Shown one piece after another: positions 13,821 through 16,099 of a stretch of 33,165 bases of DNA (positions are counted from its first letter, which is position 1; each line of letters begins with the position of its first letter). Both the position numbers and the translations under genes were made by a program. The notes below the pieces were generated by a model, which had not been told where the DNA came from, did no database searches, and saw only the letters and a list, made by a program, of their open reading frames with translations. The DNA is from Acidimicrobiaceae bacterium (GTDB lineage Bacteria > Actinomycetota > Acidimicrobiia > Acidimicrobiales > Acidimicrobiaceae), in NCBI GenBank assembly GCA_013044475.1, contig JABEUM010000023.1, positions 1 to 33,165 on the forward strand, read 5' to 3'.

Positions 13821-14456
13821 CTATGATGCTCGGCGACCGGGATGGTGTTCCATGCGCTCCACGGCTTGCACTGCGATCTCTCCTTCTGCCAATATTCCAC
13901 TAGAGACGGAACCTGACAACGTCCACGGCGACCTGCTCACAAAGAGTCGCAGGTCTGCCTTGATCCTGTATGAGATCTCTTTTGGCGAAGAACTGTTTTC
14001 AATAACCACCAGGGTTGCACCCTTCTGCCTAGCCTTAGCGCTAAACCTAGGCGAATTCAAGGAAGCGATTCTTCCGGAAATCACTACTATTCCAAAGCCG
14101 TCTAAGAGAGCAAATGCCGCCCGAGCGAGTTCGCGCTCCGAAAACTTTAGCTTCGGATCGACTGTTATCACTTTCGAAAGATCTACGCCTAAATGGGCTG
14201 CTAGAGAAAAGTTATAGTCGTCCAGACCAACCACCGCCGAATATATTCCTTTACTAGATGGTTCTGCCAAAAGCAGCGACAAGAAGGTGTAGCTTCCAGT
14301 TGCAGGCAAAGCATGGACAACAACCGTCGAACCTCGGCTTATGGAAAGGTTTTTTAGGGCACCCTGAAGCCTTTCGCAAGTCGGCAGTGTCTTCGACCCG
14401 CTGGCATCCTCCACTCCTTTACAAACGGCAGCCGTTGGCCCAGAATAGGTTTTCAT
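13821..14456 (-). CDS. imuA': ImuA' (RecA-like mutasome component)
   Basis: RecA-like core with degenerate P-loop (ALPATGSYT), VVGLDDYNFSLAAHLGVDLSKVITVDP; directly upstream of imuB; ATGA overlap with iscB. Confidence 0.78.
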   Translation of the reverse strand: MKTYSGPTAAVCKGVEDASGSKTLPTCERLQGALKNLSISRGSTVVVHALPATGSYTFLSLLLAEPSSKGIYSAVVGLDDYNFSLAAHLGVDLSKVITVDPKLKFSERELARAAFALLDGFGIVVISGRIASLNSPRFSAKARQKGATLVVIENSSSPKEISYRIKADLRLFVSRSPWTLSGSVSSGILAEGEIAVQAVERMEHHPGRRAS

Positions 14457-16099
14457 CGAAAATGGGTGTGGGACGAGAAACCCTCGGCTTCAGCCGTAAG
14501 GAGGGATAGCCCCACTCGGGCCGTAGGCCCGACCTCCTCTCGTTGCTCGTATTCCCCGTCGCTACGTTGCAAGAGCACGCAGCGGCAGTATCCGATTCCT
14601 TGCACGGTGTGGCTGACTGTGCTGATGTCGCAGCTACCGCTTTTGCGCACGGCCACACGTCCGAGGTGAATACCGGCTTTCTTGTCAGTTAGAACAACAG
14701 CCAGTACGAGGTCGCCGGTCTGAAATCCCTGTACAGGCTTCGTGCGTGGAGGAGATAGCCGTGGAAATCCAGACTTAGCAGAGCTAGTTCTAGAGTGCGT
14801 TCCGCGTCCAGTCGTTTTAGTGATAATGACTCTGGAGGGATAAGGGACTACACGGTTTACCTGACCGACACAGATTGCAATGAGTGAGTGAGACTTAGAC
14901 GATCGAAATTGGTGGCGGTTCCATTTGGTCTGCCCTCCGGTGCCCGTACAAACGGGTGAGCCAGTAGCTTGTAGTGCTCGGCAAAGCGCCCAACGTGTGG
15001 GGTTGACCGCCGCTGCATCTTTGAGCGGTGATTTGGCATGCCATAGGACTCGCTTGACTATAGCGTCCGCATTGTAAGGAAACCGAGATGCTAACCACGT
15101 GCTTAGCTCAATGGCATCTTTCGACTGGTTGCATGGGATGCACGCCCGGGTCACATTTGAAACATGGTTGGATCCATTACGAGACTTCGGGTGGATACGG
15201 TCGACATTGAGAGGCACATCCGTCGCTCCACAATAGGCACATGTTCGATTCGACTTAGCGAGCAGATATTCCCTTATTTCGTAGCCAGCTAGCTCTCCAC
15301 TCTGATACTCGACTCCGCTGATCTTTGGGTTTTCCATCTTCTGTGTGTCAAAGCGCACTAGCTCCTGAGGAATAGTGGTCGCTGGTGACCACTTCGCTAG
15401 TTTGGTCACCGCGGACATAGAGAAGTCCATCCAATGCCGGAGACCTGGAGCTAACCAGCCCTTTGAATCGGTTCGGTTATTAAACCTAGGTGCTCTGTAT
15501 CGTAAGTTACGGCTGCGACGGCCACGCCTACAACTGACGCGCTGCTGCATTTTCTTGTGGATAAACTGCCCTCGATATTGCAACATCAACGAGGACAGTC
15601 CTACTCGACCAGCTTCTGATGACCAAAACACCGATATGCCCGTAGCCTTGGAGCCAGGGTCGATACCGACCTCAACCCCATCAACAACAGAATTGCCTGC
15701 TTCTCTGTCCACCAAGTGGATTACAAATGGAGCGAGATGGTGGACCCTCGCTCGGCCAGATTGCAATAACTTGCGCGCCCGTGCAGGGTGGCAAGGGATA
15801 AGCGGGTTTCCGTGTTTGTCAGCCGCGAGCACCCTCTGAGCCGATACAAGTGAAGCCGCAAGGCTCCGATCTTCGCCTCTGTCGGATTGCTCCGACTTAG
15901 ACGAGTGACGCTGGGACAGACAGGTGAGTCCGCTTCCAGTCTCCACTCGGCGATGTTGCACACCAACTACAGCGTTATCCGCCGTCTCCGCACCCCATTT
16001 CGTACCTACTTCGGGCTTGTCTGCTAATGTGGATTCAAGAGCAGGGAGCTGAGGAAGCATCTCCTGATTGGTCTTCTTGCTCACATGCAATGTAGACAT
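14453..16099 (-). CDS. iscB: IscB-family protein (PLMP - RuvC-I - RRXRR bridge helix - RuvC-II - HNH - RuvC-III) with substitutions at expected catalytic residues; the N-terminal ~85 codons may be omega-RNA region rather than protein
   Basis: VLAADKHGNPLIPCHPARARKLLQSGRARVHHLAPF; VEVGIDPGSKATGISV; RRGRRSRNLRYRAPRFNNR; QELVRFDTQKMENPKISGVEYQSGELAGYEIREYLL; CAYCG..NVDRIHPKSRNGSNHVSNVTRACIPCNQSK; KSHSLIAICVG; GFQTGDLVLAVV; VQGI. Confidence 0.92.
   Translation of the reverse strand: MSTLHVSKKTNQEMLPQLPALESTLADKPEVGTKWGAETADNAVVGVQHRRVETGSGLTCLSQRHSSKSEQSDRGEDRSLAASLVSAQRVLAADKHGNPLIPCHPARARKLLQSGRARVHHLAPFVIHLVDREAGNSVVDGVEVGIDPGSKATGISVFWSSEAGRVGLSSLMLQYRGQFIHKKMQQRVSCRRGRRSRNLRYRAPRFNNRTDSKGWLAPGLRHWMDFSMSAVTKLAKWSPATTIPQELVRFDTQKMENPKISGVEYQSGELAGYEIREYLLAKSNRTCAYCGATDVPLNVDRIHPKSRNGSNHVSNVTRACIPCNQSKDAIELSTWLASRFPYNADAIVKRVLWHAKSPLKDAAAVNPTRWALCRALQATGSPVCTGTGGQTKWNRHQFRSSKSHSLIAICVGQVNRVVPYPSRVIITKTTGRGTHSRTSSAKSGFPRLSPPRTKPVQGFQTGDLVLAVVLTDKKAGIHLGRVAVRKSGSCDISTVSHTVQGIGYCRCVLLQRSDGEYEQREEVGPTARVGLSLLTAEAEGFSSHTHFR
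14485..14532. repeat. Right-end-like region of the IscB element with two hairpins (CGGCTTCAGCCG; TCGGGCC-GTA-GGCCCGA)
   Basis: Hairpin sequences resembling IS200/IS605-group right ends, located inside the 3' end of the iscB ORF. Confidence 0.4.

Follow-up and report, generated by a model that had tools for sequence, protein, structure and literature searches.

An IscB element with substitutions in both nuclease centres at the imuA' start codon of an Acidimicrobiaceae bacterium, and a possible reason for its open reading frame

IscB proteins of the HEARO/OMEGA systems, such as OgeuIscB and TbaIscB, contain a PLMP region, RuvC-I, RuvC-II, and RuvC-III, a bridge helix, an HNH domain, and a C-terminal TAM-interacting region, and they are encoded with an upstream omega RNA between defined element ends (LE and RE). 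For HEARO elements, positions preceding ATGA or GTGA have been described. The catalytic set of OgeuIscB consists of D61, E193, H340, D343, and H247 (PMC9640706). IsrB (DtIsrB), an RNA-guided relative, has no HNH and an active RuvC, and its TAM is NTGA, with ATGA being accepted (PMC9581776). TldR proteins belong to the TnpB family, which has RuvC alone; they are transposon nucleases that have lost catalysis next to host genes, yet they retain a guide RNA, still bind their targets, and form conserved clades (PMC13418256). We analyzed a 33,165-nucleotide stretch of the genome of an Acidimicrobiaceae bacterium (GCA_013044475.1, contig JABEUM010000023.1), hereafter the window, in a sample consisting of this draft genome (G000, 86% complete) and four congeners. 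The protein regions and element ends listed above were all found in the window, with a recognizable but eroded omega RNA upstream, and TbaIscB (9k30) was the closest solved sequence to its IscB. Unlike the OgeuIscB and TbaIscB systems, the window IscB lacks the HNH His and the RuvC-III Asp, its omega RNA falls under the Rfam gathering score, and its gene adjoins imuA'B rather than a transposase. It resembles IsrB in lacking a working HNH, but the HNH domain itself is kept and both centres are altered.

The iscB ORF (positions 14453-16099, minus strand) encodes 548 aa, starts with ATG, has no internal stop, and ends with a TGA at 14453-14455. It matched NCBIfam NF040563 (guided_IscB) at 356.6 bits (cut-off 175) and contained both the Pfam RRXRR and HNH domains, with its modules in the order PLMP (here PLIP), RuvC-I, bridge helix, RuvC-II, HNH, and RuvC-III. 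An earlier note on this DNA had described an IscB with all modules whose HNH His had become Arg and whose RuvC-III Asp had become Ile, and the alignments bore this out. Residue 301 in the HNH is Arg (codon CGT, 15197-15199), compared with His in 115 of 119 aligned homologues, and residue 407 in RuvC-III is Ile (codon ATT, 14879-14881), compared with Asp in all 119. Since these positions are the counterparts of H247 and D343 of OgeuIscB (PMC9640706), one residue is missing in each nuclease centre. In the alignment to TbaIscB, I407 likewise fell on the RuvC-III Asp, and R301 on the HNH position, which is Ala in the construct that was solved. RuvC-I Asp147, RuvC-II Glu246, Asp300, RuvC-III His404, and all four cysteines of the HNH remain unchanged, and no neighbouring residue in the homologue alignment substitutes for the lost His301 or Asp407. 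Sequencing error in both centres is an unlikely cause, because H301R and D407I require three separate base substitutions. Judged by these alignments, the ORF is a full-length IscB carrying H301R and D407I, and the lost residues argue against an active nuclease, not against descent from IscB. The apparent inactivation of both centres claimed in the note is thus well supported by the residues, and the protein would be expected to show no cleavage activity in vitro.

The AlphaFold model of the window IscB was moderate (pLDDT 65, pTM 0.52). A Foldseek search with it matched IscB structures, which did not separate the competing hypotheses discussed below. Residues 1 to ~80, before the PLMP region, were predicted at a pLDDT of about 35 or lower; because the omega RNA overlaps the start of the ORF, they are unlikely to be folded protein.

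Altered catalytic residues were also observed in other IscBs. P0056, P0059, and P0070 form a clade (stem 0.458, support 1.0) in which the HNH His is replaced by Leu or Pro and RuvC-II is altered (QETTAFD) while RuvC-I and RuvC-III are intact, and they are possibly a lineage-stable HNH-dead IscB. In P0025, P0042, P0048, P0047, P0106, P0031, and the G035 and G036 copies, the RuvC-I Asp is replaced by Ala with the HNH intact; the RuvC-II Glu is often Gly, Leu, or Ala in this set, which has several separate origins, and its members are candidates for natural HNH-only nickases. P0051 has an open frame with RuvC-I Asp to Gly and HNH His to Gln changes and has lost many conserved residues.

The whole IscB element is 1734 bp long (14457-16190, minus strand) and runs from the LE (GTCAACCACCCC) to the RE (...CCCATTTTCG), with a right-end hairpin (CCTTACGGCTGAAGCCGAGG; 14482-14504, minus strand) recognized by comparison with intact copies. 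Its ends were fixed from the empty G029 counterparts of two further copies in the window genome, C93 and C190, which give the element as GTCAACCAC...CCATTCTC(G/T), inserted directly 5' of ATGA. The C93 copy, in the same genome as the window, encodes a 68% identical IscB and has the same ends and the same ATGA rule; unlike the window copy, its catalytic residues are all intact and its site is empty in G029. The ATGA at 14453-14456 (minus strand), the putative target-adjacent motif of the window copy, agrees with the NTGA TAM of IsrB (PMC9581776). In C190 (L003) and in C192 (L005), also of the window genome, the right-end ATGA provides the first codon of a downstream ORF (MRTISVKKR... and MKSFAIVAS..., respectively), indicating that insertion onto start codons is recurrent. 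The C190 iscB is frameshifted, and C192 is a remnant. We place high confidence in this account of the element, its insertion rule, and its decay.

An N-terminal remnant of an IS607 tnpA, a recombinase gene, was detected at 16505-16772 (minus strand). It was rejected as the transposase of the IscB element, since it lies outside the element and inside a stretch that is absent from G029. The adjacent decayed tnpA, which had been cited in support of a retained iscB, therefore belongs to a separate IS607 element and lends no such support. An intact Y1 transposase was found elsewhere (C157). The window also encodes an 809-aa protein with a TrwC relaxase domain (22871-25300), in surroundings that otherwise look chromosomal.

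The omega RNA (RF02033; 15935-16190, minus strand) overlaps the ORF across ~55 codons at its start and is eroded. It scored 41.1 bits, below the gathering score of 83, compared with 106, 100.9, and 95 bits for the same-genus G027, C93, and C190 copies, respectively. In helices hand-chosen from C93, the window RNA formed 25 of the 34 core pairs, compared with 33 in C93 and 34 each in C190 and G027; two of the four pseudoknot pairs and half of P3 were lost, and P5 was also eroded. The protein is probably unable to load a proper guide. The left flank (..AGATCGAGCGGTTTTC; 16191-16210, minus strand) would be the guide. A search for it followed by NTGA, in one guide register across the 86%-complete assembly, returned at up to two mismatches its own flank alone (one mismatch, no TAM there). 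At three mismatches, three chance-level sites were obtained, and a reversed-pattern control gave two.

These results bear on the proposal of the earlier note that the protein is a retained, RNA-guided DNA-binding protein. Domestication as an RNA-guided repressor in the manner of TldR, with the nuclease dead, would fit the loss of both nuclease centres in an open frame, the stable position beside non-transposon genes, and the low branch-average omega reported below. However, the helices of the guide RNA are eroded, the guide lacks a second target that is convincing, structural invariants have been lost along with the catalytic residues, and no orthologue shares the dead state, with 0 of 119 relatives sharing the Asp407 loss. 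The window protein does resemble TldR as a transposon nuclease with catalytic loss and host genes adjacent (PMC13418256), but it is an IscB rather than a TnpB, and its guide RNA is eroded. On these sequence features the comparison with TldR does not hold up, and a repressor of this kind appears very unlikely.

Downstream of the element lie imuA' (13821-14456, minus strand), encoding a DnaE2-dependent mutagenesis accessory factor (NF058630, 59 bits, slightly under the cut-off of 65), and the next cistron, imuB (12207-13805, minus strand), encoding a Y-family polymerase-like protein that was identified by DNA polymerase IV models scoring well under their cut-offs and by its position after imuA'. 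With dnaE2 at 4000-7233, the whole ImuA'-ImuB-DnaE2 mutasome is found within the window. The palindromes CGAACATATGTTCG (16255-16268, minus strand), upstream of the element, and CGAACACTTGTTCG (3764-3777), upstream of dnaE2, resemble LexA (SOS) boxes when judged by the actinobacterial LexA consensus. The core of CGAACATATGTTCG also occurs upstream of imuA' in G026, G027, and G028, and the operon may be under SOS control.

In the window, the ATGA at the right end of the element is the imuA' start codon, and because the element lies directly 5' of it, the iscB stop (TGA) overlaps the imuA' start (ATG). Shine-Dalgarno energies were -12.2 kcal/mol for the iscB leader, +1.2 kcal/mol for the imuA' leader, and -2.7 kcal/mol for the reconstructed pre-insertion imuA' leader, so that iscB has a strong Shine-Dalgarno and imuA' none of its own. 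This is the arrangement of a passenger cistron, namely, a stop/start overlap and a strong upstream RBS before a gene without its own RBS. In G027 and G028, imuA' likewise has no Shine-Dalgarno and no evident coupling partner, implying that imuA' does not strictly depend on coupling; these genomes presumably express it uncoupled.

The fate of the insertion differed among the congeners. G029, whose imuA' is 86% identical, carries the same insertion, but its middle has been exchanged, and the sequence now there includes a zinc-ribbon piece of the TnpB type. In G027 and G028, a right-end stretch of about 50 nt is all that is left between the LexA-box-like site and the imuA' ATG, and at the G026 imuA' site the element is absent. 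The right-end scars and remnants in G027, G028, and G029 indicate that the insertion predates the split of the four genomes, and a recent insertion at this site is ruled out. In G029, ORF1 (Shine-Dalgarno -12.2 kcal/mol) ends in ATGTCTAG, its TAG at 3382-3384 overlapping an ATG at 3377, and the second ORF, which starts at that ATG, has its stop on the imuA' ATGA. A chimeric ORF in G029 (L068:2788-3384) joins an IscB N-terminus to the TnpB-type zinc-ribbon piece (Cas12f1-like TNB). The long inserts of the window and G029 would thus allow ribosomes to pass into imuA', and the insert has been removed in the other two genomes, a pattern in keeping with selection for an insert that is translated throughout. 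The same-locus comparison that the earlier note had proposed as a check thus yielded one gutted and two deleted copies and no shared dead state, and neither the 120 listed proteins nor the 43 family genomes yielded a direct orthologue carrying these dead residues.

The same pattern bears on a guide-independent role of the dead protein, for example, nucleic-acid binding in the SOS response beside ImuA'-ImuB. The place of iscB as first cistron of the operon would agree with such a role, as would the predicted core, which has a pLDDT of about 80-90 across much of RuvC/HNH and matches IscB structures. However, the core has been lost at this site in G029 and in G027 and G028, and conserved residues in several domains of the window protein have changed, so we regard this role as highly improbable. 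Also very unlikely is a dead IscB that still binds nucleic acid and, induced by DNA damage, regulates or partners the ImuA'-ImuB-DnaE2 mutasome without cutting, which would make it an IscB counterpart of TldR.

Residue loss in the window IscB extends to near-invariant non-catalytic positions (V92A, R128H, H175Y, S219G, R223W, R312H, L316V, and G472D). Among columns that are at least 97% conserved, 7 of 83 were changed, the highest number among 120 sequences, compared with ~1.9 losses expected for a branch of such length at the rate in other tips. At a looser level of 90%, 15 of 153 columns were changed; P0051, P0067, and P0041 were similar, indicating that the degree of erosion is not unique. 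Protein trees were built with FastTree. Branch codon ML on the protein core gave an omega of 0.17 for the window iscB branch, equal to the background (likelihood interval roughly 0.12-0.26), and rejected omega=1 by 20 lnL, which rules out an omega near 1 over the whole branch and, on the dN/dS check proposed in the note, points to past constraint. Domain by domain, omega did not shift significantly (largest LRT 3.4, bridge helix). By these codon comparisons, the window iscB has a long functional past; omega is a whole-branch average, and recent or present protein-level function is compatible with such strong averaged constraint. Flanking genes differ between the window genome and G029 by a dS of about 0.23. 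Relative to G029, the window copy has an in-frame 3-nt deletion, which G029 lacks, and no frameshifts, and the fragments shared by the two carry 17 changes on the window lineage and 66 on the G029 lineage, indicating that the window copy was constrained much of the time while the G029 copy drifted.

Simulations pointed to a later neutral phase of ~30-100 substitutions, with a best-fitting number (K) of roughly 50-75. Under a simple mutation model that leaves frameshifts uncounted, the probability of no stop was 0.31 at 30 neutral substitutions, 0.13 at 53, 0.06 at 75, and 0.03 at 100. Drift without selection over all the time since the lineage parted from G029 (about 190 substitutions) was rejected, as too few invariants have been lost and the probability of no stop would be at most 0.002. 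The window iscB may nevertheless be a plain recent pseudogene, which lost its activity lately and has drifted neutrally for too little time to acquire a stop. The loss of non-catalytic invariants and RNA pairs looks like general decay, an open frame would not be especially improbable at a K of about 30-53, and databases contain further IscBs that are decayed yet open, P0051 among them with both centres altered. At the best-fitting K, however, the frame would survive with a probability of just 6-13%, the sole indel that could be polarized against G029 is in frame, and G029 also retains a translatable chain into imuA'. Recent plain decay, the chief rival of the reading proposed below, is therefore possible but not comfortable, and we rate its chances at somewhat over one in three. 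The claim that this is not a random pseudogene is accordingly plausible, the frame being open despite a stop probability of ~70-97% at about 30-100 neutral substitutions.

The open frame is better accounted for by where the element lies than by a role in regulation. We propose that a once-active IscB (HEARO/OMEGA) transposon inserted, in the ancestor of four congeneric genomes, exactly 5' of the imuA' ATGA, between the LexA-box-like promoter region and imuA'-imuB. For most of its history, purifying selection would have acted on the window iscB; the loss of the HNH His and the RuvC-III Asp, of further conserved positions, and of a large part of the omega RNA would be recent, leaving a protein that should not cut and probably could not load a proper guide. 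Ribosomes may enter at the strong iscB Shine-Dalgarno and cross into imuA' through the ATGA overlap. An untranslated 1.6-kb insert would lower expression of the operon, and a stop or frameshift in iscB would thus be costly though the protein itself is unneeded, so that the frame would stay open. That iscB is kept open because it is translated as the leading cistron of an SOS operon seems to us an even bet. The overlap with imuA' offers a reason for the open frame other than the RNA-guided function put forward in the earlier note, and the same-site copies of the congeners are gutted or deleted; the observation on which that note rested is correct, and its main inference is unlikely.

The empty sites show how an IscB element that inserts 5' of ATGA can hit a start codon and become an upstream cistron that overlaps the first gene of a host operon. 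This provides a concrete reason for open, nuclease-dead IscB frames that have no RNA-guided function, and a control case to be excluded in claims of domesticated dead IscB or TnpB proteins. If the coupling is true, the reading frame of a transposon would here be selected for being translated, not for its protein.
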